A stretch of DNA of 35,227 nt from Verrucomicrobiota bacterium (GTDB lineage Bacteria; Verrucomicrobiota; Verrucomicrobiia; Chthoniobacterales; JAFAMB01), in NCBI GenBank assembly GCA_019236675.1, contig JAFAIO010000425.1, forward strand, positions 1-35,227, written 5' to 3'. Below the pieces are notes generated by a model. That model searched no databases. It was not told the DNA's origin and saw only the letters and a program-made list of their open reading frames with translations. The stretch's first letter is position 1. Every line of letters begins with the position of its first letter. Shown one piece after another: positions 9,695 through 20,200 of this stretch. The position numbers were made by a program, and so were the translations under genes.

Positions 9695-11740
9695 ATGAGA
9701 ACAGAGACCTTACCACCGTCGGCTTCGGGGCTTTCACCTTCCCCACGCAGCTCGCTCGGGAACTGGCTTTCCTGGTTGAACCAGCAGGAGACTGTCCTCG
9801 TTCTGACATTCGTTATCGTCTTTATCGGGGTCACTCTGCAGAACCCCGGTTTCGCGCAGCCAAGCAACCTCGTCGACATTCTTTACAACTCCTCGTACAT
9901 CGCAGTCGCCGCCGTCGGTATGACCATGGTTATTCTTTGCGGTCATATCGACATCTCCGTCGGAGCTGCACTCGGTATTTGCGCGACTGTCGCCGGCCAA
10001 CTCGCGGTCGCCCATCAACCGATGTATCTGGTCATCCCCATTACGATTCTAACCGGGGGCGCAATCGGTCTCCTCAATGGTGTGCTCATCGCTTATGGCC
10101 GCATCCCCGCCATCGTCACGACTCTTGGCATGGCTAGCATCCTCAAAGGAGGACTCATTCTCTCCACCGGCGGCAAATGGATCTACGGATTGCCCCCGGA
10201 GTTCGGGATTAGTCGTGAATACCTTTTGGGCATGCCCGTACCGATCTTCGCCATGGTCGTGTTCGGCGTCATCTTCTCGGTCTGGCTAAAATTTTTTGCT
10301 ACCGGCCGCGAGCCCTATGCAGTGGGAGGAAATGTCGAAGCAGCGCGGCTGTCTGGGATTTCCGAGCGGGCAGTAACCATCCGGGTCTTCTTCCTGAACG
10401 GCCTTCTCGTGGGAGTCGCTGCCATCCTGTACGCGACTAATTTCACGGCGATTCAGTCAAATGTCGCGCCCGGTTTCGAGCTGACTGTCATCACCTCCGC
10501 GGTGATCGGAGGAGTGAGTATCCTCGGCGGCACCGGAACCGTGATCGGAGCGCTCTTCGGAGCGATTCTTCTTCAGACGATCGGCACCGCTTTGGTCTTC
10601 CTTCATATCCGGGCGGAATGGTTTCAGGCAGTCCAGGGTGCACTCATCCTTCTGACGATCCTACTCGACGTCTTCCGGAGACGCCGCACGCCGGGTGCTT
10701 CAGTCGCACTGGCCGCTGCAGGAGGCGGCCGCGAAGCGGCTTCTCCGACGCTTTTCGGTATCAGATGGCTAACCTTGCAAGAAACCCTGCTGTTCGGCGT
10801 GCTCATCATCGTGATGATCGTTTTGGCCCAGAGATCCGATCGATTTCTCACGGTCGCAAACCTCATGAATCAAACTCGCTTCATGACGGAAGTCGCTTTG
10901 CTGGCGGTGCCCATGACCTTCATCATCATTCTTGGCGGTATTGATCTTTCGGTGGGATCGATGTTGGCGCTCAGCGCTATCGCGCTGGGATTTTCCTGGC
11001 AGAGCTTCGGATTCCCTCTCTGGCTGGCTGTCATCGTCGGTATCGTAGCGGGGTCTTTAGCCGGGTTACTGAACGGCCTGGCCATCGTCTACTTGCGCGT
11101 TCCTCCGCTGATCGTCACTTTGGCCACCCTGGCCATCTACCGCGGTCTCTCATTGGGGATTAGCGAATCCCGCTCGGTCAACGGGTTTCCCGATACTTTC
11201 GCTTTCTTCGGTAGCGGCGAAATCCTTGGGCTGCCCGTCCAGCTTTACCTTTTGATAGTCGTGCTGATCATTAGCGCGGTTGCGTTGGCTGCCACTCCAC
11301 TCGGTCGTTCCATCTACGCCATCGGCAACAATGAGACCGCCGCTCGCTTCGCCGGGATCCCAGTGAACCGGATCAAACTGTTTGCCTATAGCTTTAGCGG
11401 TTTTATGGCCGGGATCGCCGGGTTTATTTACACCTCTCGAGTTACTAGCACCCGAGCCGATGCCGCCACCGGAATGGAGCTGGACGTCATTGCAGCGGTA
11501 GTGTTCGGCGGCACCAGTATCGTCGGCGGCCGCGGAACTATCGTAGGTACCGCCCTCGGTGTCATCACCATCGAATTTTTAAGGAACGGTCTCCAATTGT
11601 CTGGCTTCCGCGGCGAAGCCACCGTCATCCTGATCGGAGCCGTTCTGATCATCTCTATTTTGCTAAATCAGCTGCTGGAAAGTTTTATCCTTTCCGGCCG
11701 CAGATTTAACAAATCCAACCCACCCCCTACATCCACATGA
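9695..11740 (+). CDS. Sugar ABC importer, two permease domains fused in one chain
   Basis: A 681-residue inner-membrane protein made of two complete RbsC-type permeases in tandem. Copy 1 runs to about residue 326 and copy 2 from about 355. A linker rich in Ala and Gly (TPGASVALAAAGGGREAASP) joins them. Each copy has the permease hallmarks: CGHIDISVG against GGIDLSVGS; NGVLIAYGRIPAIVTTLG against NGLAIVYLRVPPLIVTLA; and the ATPase-contact loop GREPYAVGGNVEAARLSGI against GRSIYAIGNNETAARFAGI. The usual family member is a single permease of about 320-350 residues. The copies are diverged, so they resemble the paired permeases of rhamnose and AI-2 importers (RhaP/RhaQ, LsrC/LsrD). The stop overlaps the binding-protein start as ATGA. 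Confidence 0.93.
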   Translation: MRTETLPPSASGLSPSPRSSLGNWLSWLNQQETVLVLTFVIVFIGVTLQNPGFAQPSNLVDILYNSSYIAVAAVGMTMVILCGHIDISVGAALGICATVAGQLAVAHQPMYLVIPITILTGGAIGLLNGVLIAYGRIPAIVTTLGMASILKGGLILSTGGKWIYGLPPEFGISREYLLGMPVPIFAMVVFGVIFSVWLKFFATGREPYAVGGNVEAARLSGISERAVTIRVFFLNGLLVGVAAILYATNFTAIQSNVAPGFELTVITSAVIGGVSILGGTGTVIGALFGAILLQTIGTALVFLHIRAEWFQAVQGALILLTILLDVFRRRRTPGASVALAAAGGGREAASPTLFGIRWLTLQETLLFGVLIIVMIVLAQRSDRFLTVANLMNQTRFMTEVALLAVPMTFIIILGGIDLSVGSMLALSAIALGFSWQSFGFPLWLAVIVGIVAGSLAGLLNGLAIVYLRVPPLIVTLATLAIYRGLSLGISESRSVNGFPDTFAFFGSGEILGLPVQLYLLIVVLIISAVALAATPLGRSIYAIGNNETAARFAGIPVNRIKLFAYSFSGFMAGIAGFIYTSRVTSTRADAATGMELDVIAAVVFGGTSIVGGRGTIVGTALGVITIEFLRNGLQLSGFRGEATVILIGAVLIISILLNQLLESFILSGRRFNKSNPPPTST

Positions 11741-12795: not shown

Positions 12796-12862
12796 GCCGC
12801 ACTTGGAGGAAGGATCATCCGGCAGCCGCCGAATCCTTCCCCGGCCAAAGGGTCCCTGCCAG

Positions 12863-12893
12863 AAAGGCGAACGCATGTTCGCCTTTTCTGTTT
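12863..12893 (+). terminator. Rho-independent terminator after the sugar importer operon
   Basis: AAAGGCGAAC-GCAT-GTTCGCCTTT is a perfect 10-bp stem with a 4-base loop, followed by a T-rich tail (TTTTCTGTTTAG). It lies 67 bp after the binding-protein stop and before the palindromic element at 12900. The short A run on the other side could also serve the convergent HIT gene. Confidence 0.85.
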
Positions 12894-12899
12894 AGTATC

Positions 12900-13029
12900 A
12901 ATCGTACTCGTCCTCCAATTTGGTGGGGCGAGGCTCCCGAATCACCCGAACGTGTTCGCAAAGCGGCCGGTATTCTACCCGATGAAGAATACTGCTACAC
13001 CAAATTCGAGGACGAGGACGAGTAGGATT
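12900..13029. repeat. 130-bp palindromic element with CGTCCTCG arms, between convergent genes
   Basis: The left arm (12900-12925) reads AATCGTACTCGTCCTCC then AATTTGGTG. The right arm (12998-13029), inverted, reads AATCCTACTCGTCCTCGTCC, then TCGAATTTGGTG. They differ mainly by one extra 6-bp CGTCCT unit. Directly inside the left arm is GGGGCGAGGCTCCC, the word that forms the 21-bp arms of the 19159-19377 element, so two word families meet here. Confidence 0.85.
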
Positions 13030-13050
13030 GGCTGCCCAGCTCCACACCTC

Positions 13051-17326: not shown

Positions 17327-17550
17327 GGTAGGGCGAAAATCTCGGCGCGCCCAGGACGTAGCTACTATTGGGAATCCTCCGCGCCGGATTTGAGCCACGC
17401 CGTGCCCCACCCACCGCATTGCTTAGGCCCCAAACGCCGTGTTCGCAACCATCACAATGAATGCCGACCCGCCACAGCGGCACAAATCCGGCGCGAACTA
17501 CCGCTCACAATTAGCGATGATCCTGGGCGCGCCGAGATTTTCGCCCTACC
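17327..17550. repeat. 224-bp element with perfect 30-bp inverted ends between ispE and lpxI
   Basis: The arms at 17327-17356 and 17521-17550 are exact reverse complements over 30 bp; they begin GGTAGGGCGAAAATCTCGGC and run on to CCCAGGA. An inner pair, CGCGCCGGATTTG at 17380-17392 and CAAATCCGGCGCG at 17483-17495, is exact over 13 bp. The core has no open frame worth calling. The right arm reaches into ispE and provides its TAG stop. The element is too short for a transposase and looks like a MITE or a large hairpin. Confidence 0.92.
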
Positions 17551-18367
17551 CCGGATTCAACCGGCACACCTGAACCCAAAACTTAAATCCGAAAAACAGC
17601 GAAAACCGGCCACTCACCTGCTCTCCATCGTCGACGCTCTTTACGACCGCAAACATCGTGGATCCGGACCCAGACATTAAAGCGAGTTCAGTCTCTGGTT
17701 GTTGTTCCAACCAACTCTTTATCTCGGGTAAGAGCAGATATTTCTGAAAAACCGGTTGCTCCAAATCGTTGCGCAGAAGGCCCCACTCCGTTTTTTTGGT
17801 CTGGCCTCGCTTAAGTTCGGAAGGCAACACCTTATAGGCCGAGTAAGCGGCCGCGGTTGAAACCCCAAACTCAGGCTTAATCAAAACCACCCAACGATCG
17901 TGCGGAAACTCACGCATCTCCATCTTCTCGCCGCGGCCGGTGCACCAAGCCGCGCACCGTTTCAAAAAGAACGGTACATCTGATCCCAACTGCGCGGCTA
18001 ACCTAGCCAGTTTTTCATCAGTTAGCGGGTTCTGATGTAACTGATTCAACAAAAGCAGAGCAGCGGCGGCATCACTGCTACCGCCACCTAGCCCTGCACC
18101 AATAGGGATCTGTTTTCGCAAATCAATCCGGTAAGTCGCCCTCCGATCGGTCTCTTCGTGGAATCTATCGATCGCTTTGGAAATGAGGTTGGAGCTGTCA
18201 AAGGGCAGGCTCGTAAGATTCGATTCATAGGTCATCTCACCCGACAGCTCCATTGCCAGCTCATCGTAGAGGCCGATCGGGATCATCCATGTGGCCAGCT
18301 CGTGATATCCGTCTGGCCTTTGCCCGAGCACTTCCAGTGTGAGATTTATCTTCGCTGGCGTTACCAT
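17546..18367 (-). CDS. ispE: 4-diphosphocytidyl-2-C-methyl-D-erythritol kinase
   Basis: IspE phosphorylates CDP-methylerythritol in the MEP pathway to isoprenoids, which here would feed hopanoid synthesis. The GHMP kinase fold is clear: TPAKINLTLEVLGQRPDGYHEL at the N terminus, the ATP loop IPIGAGLGGGSSDAAAAL near 87-104, and LMSGSGSTMFAVV near the C terminus. From the ATG at 18367 it is 273 residues; an ATG two codons earlier (18373) is equally possible. The C-terminal end (CRLNPG, then TAG) runs into the inverted repeat of the 17327-17550 element, whose arm contributes the stop, so the natural end may have been slightly different. Divergent from pyrF. Confidence 0.94.
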   Translation of the reverse strand: MVTPAKINLTLEVLGQRPDGYHELATWMIPIGLYDELAMELSGEMTYESNLTSLPFDSSNLISKAIDRFHEETDRRATYRIDLRKQIPIGAGLGGGSSDAAAALLLLNQLHQNPLTDEKLARLAAQLGSDVPFFLKRCAAWCTGRGEKMEMREFPHDRWVVLIKPEFGVSTAAAYSAYKVLPSELKRGQTKKTEWGLLRNDLEQPVFQKYLLLPEIKSWLEQQPETELALMSGSGSTMFAVVKSVDDGEQVSGRFSLFFGFKFWVQVCRLNPG

Positions 18368-18386
18368 CCTCATACAGACTCACCCT

Positions 18387-19091
18387 GTGGAAGAATCCGT
18401 AACAGCGAAAGATAAAATTATTGTCGCGCTCGATCTGCCCTCGGCCGACTCAGCACGCGATATGGTAAAGACCCTGGGCAACGACGTTTCTTGGTACAAG
18501 ATCGGGCTCCGACTCTTTGCTTTAGGTGGACCCGCCTTCGTCCAAGAAGTAAAAGCGTTCGGCGCGAAAATCTTCTTGGATTTAAAATTCCACGATATTC
18601 CAAACACGGTGCGATCCGCGGTTGAGTCCGCCTGCGCTCTAGGAGCTGACATGCTGACGATCCACCTCTCAGGCGGCTCCGAAATGTGTCAGGCAGCAGT
18701 AAAGGGTCGAGGCTCCAATTCCACGCTTATCCTTGGTGTGACCGTTCTAACCAGCCAAACAGAAGCAACACTTGCAGAAATCGGAATCAATCGATCGGTA
18801 ACCCAACAGGTTATCTCCTTGGCCACGCTCGCCAAAGCCAACGGCATCGCCGGCCTGATCGCGAGTCCTCTTGAGTTACAGCCGCTCCGCCAAGAATTCG
18901 GTAAATCCCTTGTGATCGTCACGCCCGGAGTCCGCCCAACCTGGTCGGAGGCGGGAGACCAAAAACGATTTGCCACCCCTTCAGAGGCTATCAAACTCGG
19001 CGCAGATTATCTCGTCATTGGCCGCCCCATCACCGCCTCTCCCGATCCCAAAGCCGCTTTCTCCCGCATCGCCTCTGAGCTTTTGCAGTAA
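18387..19091 (+). CDS. pyrF: Orotidine 5'-phosphate decarboxylase
   Basis: PyrF decarboxylates OMP to UMP, the last step of de novo pyrimidine synthesis. It belongs to the short bacterial type (234 residues from the GTG at 18387). IIVALDLPSADSA opens the barrel. SWYKIGLRLF, the catalytic FLDLKFHDIPNTV, MLTIHLSGG, VTPGVRP and DYLVIGRPIT follow in order. The ORF track start at 18339 would overlap the start of the divergent ispE gene, so I prefer GTG 18387. That leaves fewer than 20 bp between the two starts, so each promoter must lie within the other gene. The TAA stop is formed by the first unit of the AGTAATC repeat tract. Confidence 0.94.
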   Translation: MEESVTAKDKIIVALDLPSADSARDMVKTLGNDVSWYKIGLRLFALGGPAFVQEVKAFGAKIFLDLKFHDIPNTVRSAVESACALGADMLTIHLSGGSEMCQAAVKGRGSNSTLILGVTVLTSQTEATLAEIGINRSVTQQVISLATLAKANGIAGLIASPLELQPLRQEFGKSLVIVTPGVRPTWSEAGDQKRFATPSEAIKLGADYLVIGRPITASPDPKAAFSRIASELLQ

Positions 19092-19441
19092 TCAGTAATC
19101 AGTAATCAGTAGGTCAGTGATCAGTTCAGGAGCTAGGAGCTAGTAGGGGTGGGCTCATATTTGGTGGGGCGAGGCTCCCGAATGGCCAAATTGTTGTAGC
19201 GAAGTTGCCGGTGATCCTCGTTGAGCACCGTTACTACGCCATTAAACGCGCCGAGCCGTGGTCTATCGTGGGCCGCAGCTCGGCGCGTCGCTAAACCTTT
19301 CTCATTAGTCTTTCAACGTTCGTACCACTTTCCTTGGTCAAATCGTCGGGCTAGTAGGGAGCCTCGCCCCACCAAATACGGCCCCGCCCTCCTAGCTCCT
19401 AAATTCTAGCTCCTAGCTCCTAAACTGATTACTGGTTACTA
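19089..19441. repeat. Three-shell palindromic intergenic region between pyrF and an unknown gene
   Basis: The whole spacer is symmetric. Outer shell: AGTAATC heptamers at 19089-19124 against the inverted GATTACTGGTTACT at 19427-19441. Second shell: AGGAGCT heptamers at 19125-19143 against inverted TAGCTCC heptamers at about 19389-19425. Inner shell: a perfect 21-bp inverted repeat starting ATTTGGTGGGGCGAGGCTCC, at 19159-19179 and 19357-19377. The core of about 180 bp (19180-19356) has no gene I can support. Both flanking genes end within the outer shell: pyrF at TAA, and the minus-strand gene at TAG. Confidence 0.9.
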
Positions 19442-20200
19442 CAGATCCACCGCTGCCCGCCGCAGCCTTCGATACTCCTGCAACACCCGGATCGAAGAAA
19501 AAACAATCGCTGAAACTTGCTCGACCGGACCCGAACCCTCCGGCGTCCGCAGGGTCAAACCAAACATCTGTTTCGGTACCCCGCGCCCAAGCCCCCTTTG
19601 CCGGCGCAGAACCGCGCTCGGTAAAACCTTAACCGGTTCCTCTGCTAGCCGAACAAACCTCCCTGCTACCTCCAACGTTGGCCATGCCACTTCCGTCGCG
19701 ATTAATTCGCTATCGGTCTCAAATTGGAACCCACTCAGACGTTCATTCGTGGCGATGGAAACAAACCCATCCACGTCACTGCTAGCCAAATCCGACTCTA
19801 GAACTTGCAAGACGGGTTGCACCCCGGATGACTCATCCAACCAATCGTTGCCCGCGGTTTCAGCCCCATTATCACTGGGTTCACGCGTTACCGCGTATGA
19901 GAACAACGCGTAATCCCGTCCTACCAAGGGCGCCACCTCCAATTCCACCAGCAACTTCGCTAGCGCTCGTTGGGCCAAATCATCGTGCGACCGCAAACCG
20001 GCTATAAACGCCATCCGCACGGGCAAATTATTAGTCCGTTGTCCAATAAAAACGTAGCTCGATAACTTGTACTTTGAGTCAGCGCACTCCCGCCAACGAA
20101 CCAGATGCGAAGGATAAGAAGAGATACTTTCTAGGGGTTCAAACGCCGGCGCGGGCGGCCGGGAAAAATCAACTTGAGGAGGTGAAGAAGTCGACGCCAT
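19439..20200 (-). CDS. Hypothetical protein
   Basis: A 253-residue protein that I do not recognise with confidence. The start is well supported: ATG at 20200 with AGGAG seven bases upstream, an unusually clear ribosome binding site for this window, and a plausible promoter at 20246-20274. The first 25 residues are Pro/Ser-rich. Residues about 45-115 (YVFIGQRTNN, then AFIAGLRSHDDLAQRALAKL) faintly recall the layout of M14-type carboxypeptidases and succinylglutamate desuccinylases. The zinc-binding HxxE is not seen, so a peptidase role is only a weak guess. There is no signal peptide or membrane span. It stands alone, divergent from hpnH. Confidence 0.75.
   Translation of the reverse strand: MASTSSPPQVDFSRPPAPAFEPLESISSYPSHLVRWRECADSKYKLSSYVFIGQRTNNLPVRMAFIAGLRSHDDLAQRALAKLLVELEVAPLVGRDYALFSYAVTREPSDNGAETAGNDWLDESSGVQPVLQVLESDLASSDVDGFVSIATNERLSGFQFETDSELIATEVAWPTLEVAGRFVRLAEEPVKVLPSAVLRRQRGLGRGVPKQMFGLTLRTPEGSGPVEQVSAIVFSSIRVLQEYRRLRRAAVDL

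Follow-up and report, generated by a model that had tools for sequence, protein, structure and literature searches.

REPINs are believed to be mobilised in trans by a RAYT (REP-associated tyrosine transposase), and IS1397 inserts in the loop of REP palindromes. In REPtrons and TIRtrons a RAYT gene lies between inverted repeats, gene-less copies of which occur elsewhere (Di Nocera et al. 2013, PMC3733652); REPs are located mostly between unidirectional and convergent genes (PMC3733652). REPINs are miniature mobile DNA made of inverted REP-like sequences (PMC3116915), and extragenic REP palindromes serve insertion sequences as landing sites (Tobes and Pareja 2006, PMC1525189). Seven-base repeats are known as the intergenic TAACTGA arrays of Beggiatoaceae and Cyanobacteria, which contain stops in all three frames (PMC4679880), and as the heptanucleotide-repeat sites of Geobacter metallireducens, whose class 3 has the consensus MTYCTGA (PMC2700814).

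The intergenic region described here belongs to a window of 35,227 nucleotides (contig JAFAIO010000425.1) from a member of the Verrucomicrobiota. The mobile element that it holds is of a known kind but has an unusual form, concentric and wrapped in arrays, which we call an onion. The window's own genome is referred to as G000, its sister species (congeners) as G002 and G003, and a fourth species of the genus as G001.

The gap between pyrF and its convergent neighbour

Hairpins nested in one another, in the order A, B, 21-bp arm and core, make up the gap that separates pyrF from a 253-aa gene convergent to it. The outer shell, A, is made of CAGTAAT units and the middle shell, B, of TAGGAGC/AGGAGCT units, while T1 denotes the innermost 219 bp. 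The features, in window positions, are as follows:

18339-19091, + strand: pyrF (orotidine 5'-phosphate decarboxylase; Pfam OMPdecase, E 1e-57)
19086-19127, + strand: A array, outer shell, left arm; CAGTAAT units and an irregular unit AGTAGGTC
19128-19146, + strand: B array, middle shell, left arm; AGGAGCT units
19147-19158, + strand: short link, partially complementary to 19378-19388; belongs to inverted repeat I1
19159-19377, + strand: T1 element, 219 bp, non-autonomous and of the RAYT family as judged by copy number, genus-limited matches and alignment to the T1-RAYT element
19159-19179, + strand: T1 terminal inverted repeat, left, perfect 21 bp, ATTTGGTGGGGCGAGGCTCCC
19246-19288, no strand: T1 central hairpin, arms 19246-19261 and 19273-19288 (inverted repeat I8)
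19357-19377, - strand: T1 terminal inverted repeat, right, perfect 21 bp
19389-19422, - strand: B array, middle shell, right arm; CTCCTAG units with an interruption
19424-19443, - strand: A array, outer shell, right arm (inverted repeat I3)
19439-20200, - strand: convergent 253-aa gene, with its stop codon at the right A arm's outer edge

The coordinates of the inverted repeats bear out the original prediction of a nested palindrome in which the same words are met in the same order from both ends. The shells are inexact mirror images with arms of unequal length, the right B arm exceeding the left by one interrupted block, and their centres lie within about 15 bp of each other. Between the two 21-bp arms are 177 bp, and this core holds a fourth hairpin. 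The shells had also been expected to pair better than shuffled sequence, and they do so by far: the single-strand DNA fold of the onion reaches -95.5 kcal/mol (z -11.0) and the RNA fold -183 kcal/mol (z -12.0), with none of 100 shuffles as good in either case. No Rfam match at the gathering score was found anywhere in the window, nor any Pfam match for the 253-aa gene. Beside this gene G002 and G003 (L118, L117) have about 62 bp of ordinary spacer which the window's genome lacks (19380-19441).

Both convergent genes end in the outer shell, as predicted, the TAA stop of pyrF being part of the first CAGTAAT unit. The pyrF C-termini vary across the three species (SELLQ, SELSSK and AELP), since the stop is supplied by whichever structure comes next. 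The stop of a long open frame entering from outside lies in 39 of 203 A arrays, 27 of 113 B arrays and 25 of 78 GTGAAAA-type arrays, and in 8 of 206 T1 ends; reading from the inside gave 0-2 per family, a weak control as there are no genes there. Two octamer families hold the stop of the entering frame in 0 of 26 and 0 of 30 arrays. These counts fit seven-base units containing a stop, as described for the TAACTGA repeats (PMC4679880). Heptamer arrays thus give stops to incoming genes, which is perhaps why such structures are tolerated at gene ends.

T1 and its RAYT-bearing relatives

The inner shell had been regarded as a unique arm. The perfect 21-bp arm is there; it is not unique, since it forms the end of a mobile element of the RAYT family whose ends exist in about 140 copies. 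The 15-bp core of this end occurs in 142 exact copies in G000, which often form +/- pairs about 200-345 bp apart, and gene-less T1 copies are represented by 82 end pairs in the roughly 1.5 Mb of DNA sampled across three species. With the 216-bp T1 core as query, matches came from the same genus only. The exact 20-bp end is present in a few genomes outside the genus, as short palindromes or chance coding matches: those in other Verrucomicrobia are just palindromes of roughly 50-80 bp, and those in Clostridia, Thermoguttaceae and Abditibacteriota are unrelated and look coding (IWWGEAP, in a flavodoxin-like protein, by eye). REP hairpins typically bear a GTAG (or CGTC) tag at their foot. At the T1 end GTGG precedes a weak GGGC-GAG-GCTC stem; one G001 copy has GTAG, as does the T2 family.

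At locus L248 of G002 a RAYT gene is located between T1 ends at 1324-1345 and 2058-2079, making an element of about 756 bp. RAYT genes with a T1 end on one side, the other being cut off by the contig end, occur in G000 (L256) and G003 (L254). The T1-RAYT was missed by a Pfam Y1_Tnp search and detected by a profile built from related RAYTs. The G002 protein scores above the NCBIfam REP_Tyr_transpos [NF047646] cut-off (82.1 against 80) and, compared by eye with an alignment of related RAYTs (A1) in which H76, H78 and Y136 are invariant, possesses an HUH motif, PDHLHLF, and the catalytic-tyrosine motif AKRDYMMMNPVRAGLV. Its G000 counterpart, at 70.5, falls under the cut-off of 80 and departs from the G002 protein near the C-terminus; because of this divergence and the cut by the contig end, any present activity of the RAYT of the window's own genome is putative. 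The T1 of the window aligns to the first 105 bp (left end) of the RAYT-bearing element, past the terminal repeat. Given this alignment and the RAYT gene between T1 ends, T1 is, on sequence grounds, a non-autonomous RAYT-family element related to REPtrons and TIRtrons, its putative mobilising enzyme, the RAYT, being identified by association.

No T1 element the size of an insertion sequence was present among 54 T1 pairs in 958 kb of G000 DNA. We also considered a MITE of a classical DDE transposon and rejected it, the gene between T1 ends being a Y1 RAYT and a target-site duplication being absent. In 81 T1 copies there was no direct duplication, the flanks being inverted instead, and 20 T2 copies showed no excess of direct flank repeats.

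The arrangement of a RAYT gene with repeat ends also occurs in families T2, R42, R86 and R43, and several Y1 transposase genes of the genome occupy the centres of onions of other families. Around the R86 RAYT element lies a heptamer shell in G000, and a different array in G002. Within the window a T2 element (GGTAGGGCGAAAA ends) is found at 17327-17550, and T2 has a RAYT-bearing relative in G001 (L231/L245); copies of R42, a 42-bp repeat (GTGGAGCGCTGCCTCGCTTGCGAGGCC) which flanks a RAYT gene in L222/L238, are found at 369-471 and 2403-2440. A T2-type element in gap E of G003 (L119 reverse complement, about 9956-10528) has two arms that are perfect complements for more than 100 bp. Relative to other T2 copies, both arms contain about 100 bp of additional sequence, and the element may be very young or mirror-copied. 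T3 (TTGTCCGACGTAGC) is a hairpin insert of roughly 60 bp in one stem of the T1 central hairpin (L088, L133, L136, L079, L090 and L135:9253). It accounts for four label changes on the T1 tree described below, so it would have been gained or lost several times.

How the shells came together

The reading which we favour, at a probability of about 0.62, is that a B-T1 element landed near the centre of an existing A hairpin, the onion being a two-part mobile structure. B-T1 would be a short non-autonomous RAYT relative whose 21-bp end is extended outward by inverted TAGGAGC arrays, and its host would have been a CAGTAAT hairpin at the 3' ends of the two convergent genes. Entry close to the centre of this hairpin would give the order A, B, T1. 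Presumably the RAYT moves T1 in trans via single-stranded HUH/Y1 chemistry, and hairpin centres may be preferred for landing, since single-stranded DNA is exposed in the loops.

Array and tree counts given here cover about 1 Mb of G000 DNA, for the most part on contigs selected for the T1 copies they contain, and about 0.5 Mb of DNA of two congeners, some of it selected in this way; the analysis draws on metagenome-assembled genomes, sampled DNA and fixed-motif family searches. The flanks of T1 are complementary, left against right, in 33 of 81 copies, compared with 7.4 expected from mismatched pairs (binomial 3e-14). The polarity of paired repeats is fixed (A 65 to 2, B 33 to 0, T1 82 to 1, F 29 to 0, T2 21 to 0, R42 8 to 0). 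Nested pairs almost share a centre, their median centre offset being 4 bp (n=42). Intergenic direct heptamer arrays of the TAACTGA type were considered as well and do not fit A and B, the paired arrays of which are inverted in these proportions.

Fifty-two of 65 A hairpins contain no recognised inner family, and their median loop is 34 bp; some A hairpins enclose T2 or F rather than B or T1. Inspection by eye had hinted that the A arrays share a conserved outer end, but 211 arrays from the genus showed none. Further afield, A hairpins of the same polarity occur in G215 (L259-L265), from a distant genus of the same phylum, where they are long, with up to about 16 units per arm; in the phylum the array is patchy (5 of 289 genomes). 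G241, another distant Verrucomicrobiota genome, gave 34 matches to the reversed control heptamer pattern, perhaps representing another heptamer array family.

On a tree of 71 T1 cores 19 of the 24 copies with a B shell, including that of the window, fall in one group (support 85), which sits within a clade of 22 T1 copies (support 99). The B label changes six times on this tree, compared with 20 times when shuffled, and none of 500 shuffles was as low. By this grouping B and T1 most likely became one unit once, and they travel together; it rules out independent insertion of T1 into B locus by locus. Because B goes with a single lineage of T1, the middle and inner shells would not be separate steps here, and two of the three shells probably arrived together at the window locus. 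The stepwise nested insertion originally proposed is thereby retained in part, with two steps rather than three.

The junction of A with B (CAGTTTAGGAGC) looks similar at many of the loci, which gives the impression that the two sometimes travel together, and this speaks against our reading. The order A>B>T1 is present at about ten loci with this similar junction, and the irregular unit AGTAGGTC recurs in several. The whole of A-B-T1 might on this evidence move as one element, the copies without A having lost their outer shell. We think this unlikely, since the A label is not clustered within the B-T1 group (7 changes, compared with 7.0 after shuffling) and most A hairpins, as noted, are devoid of B and T1 or hold T2 or F. 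Furthermore 18 of 20 copies of the group either carry A on both arms or lack it altogether, and in all ten copies lacking A it is missing from both arms together, which erosion of the ends would not produce. The scatter of the A shell and this both-or-neither pattern are fitted better by repeated landing of B-T1 in A hairpins than by repeated loss.

G002 and G003 share the window's genes in collinear order and at about 83-89% identity, yet the seven window gaps that were compared differ from their counterparts. Among 94 orthologous gaps 23 are palindromic in both compared species and 38 in one only, and homology over most of the length was found in 0 of those 23. In G002 the pyrF locus contains nothing more than an A-type heptamer hairpin whose loop is short. 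In G003 it contains B and A arms, on the right only, together with part of an oppositely oriented T1 and, on the left, a hexamer array. Relatives with fewer shells had been named as support for nested growth; the A-type hairpin of G002 and the one-sided B and A arms of G003 supply this in part. Against it, the G002 hairpin is built of AGTAAGC-type units and may have arisen independently at that site, in which case it would not be the empty host.

Elsewhere orthologous gaps have their outer family in common and differ within it. The pairs are A>B and short-looped A at L135:955, E>R86>T1 and E at L086, F>T1 and F at window 12812-13045, and G>T1 and G>T1>J at L072; each can also be read as loss. 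L157 differs in the opposite direction, with T1 in both species and one-sided B and A arms in one only. At L132 a B>T1 onion is common to two species, and the third has a different onion at that site. In the window a hexamer (GTCCTC) palindrome at 12904-13025 surrounds a truncated T1, and the corresponding G003 gap has this hexamer palindrome with another core.

Growth at a hairpin by template switching had been offered at the outset as an alternative to insertion. The palindrome would have grown by template switching or fold-back copying, independently of transposition, with quasipalindrome correction keeping its arms alike. Template switching is reported to create and maintain hairpins (PMC8794818), and it would suit the variant-by-variant matching of arms (for example in the hexamer palindrome of G003 gap C and the heptamer hairpin of G002 pyrF) as well as the perfect long arms in G003 gap E. 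We nonetheless hold it to be quite improbable. Such growth is not needed: the core belongs to a family of many copies, one relative of which bears a transposase, and B-T1 is a lineage dispersed over many loci. In the one onion compared that two species share (L132/L127), moreover, left arms are closer to left arms across species than to their own right arms (by eye), which argues against fast arm-to-arm copying at that locus.

A strong inverted repeat is present in 35-57% of sampled intergenic regions of G000, G002 and G003, a figure which can be inflated by the choice of contigs for T1 (mostly in G000, partly in G002 and G003), and in none of the shuffles. Convergent gaps in these species have them most commonly (48-79%) and divergent gaps most rarely (12-22%); in small samples of G001 and three other genera they are found in 0-10% of gaps. 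Although the preference for convergent gaps would suit an ordinary bidirectional terminator or 3'-end stabiliser under selection, with the repeats incidental, this is very improbable in view of their rarity in G001 and the other genera, the 23 doubly palindromic gaps that share no sequence homology, and the mobile-element ends. A putative terminator function is compatible with the landing of B-T1 in an A hairpin.

As a wider proposal, which we put somewhat below even odds, RAYT-type elements of several families might preferentially enter hairpin centres, with array hairpins as landing pads, and the concentric nests would turn over between species whose genes stay collinear. Since T3 is inserted in the stem of T1, not the loop, centre targeting is not universal.

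Comparison with known systems

On how REP-like elements choose their sites the genus offers a large natural record, in which several RAYT families are nested mutually or within array hairpins, the median offset between centres being a few bases, and in which collinear congeners hold different nests in the same gap. Intergenic seven-base arrays and RAYT elements, usually treated apart, are linked here. If centre targeting were confirmed, it would provide a simple rule for the accumulation of intergenic hairpins in bacterial genomes.

Like REPtrons and TIRtrons, T1 has a RAYT gene between inverted repeats, together with gene-less copies. Unlike them, its ends are extended by inverted seven-base arrays, and different families nest concentrically. 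T1 is longer than REPINs (mostly about 219-355 bp) and its end carries GTGG in place of the typical GTAG. A palindrome would serve as landing site here, as it does for the insertion sequences found in REP palindromes; the latter carry their own transposase, whereas here short elements repeatedly nest in one another. The TAACTGA repeats are almost all direct (PMC4679880), and the arrays of this genus are often inverted pairs of fixed polarity which form hairpins. The Geobacter metallireducens sites, as treated in the relevant passages of PMC2700814, share tandem heptamers in multicopy sequences, drawn as looping back on the other strand; they are proposed there as protein-binding sites, with no transposase link or nesting described in those passages, in contrast to the nested, RAYT-associated arrays of this genus.
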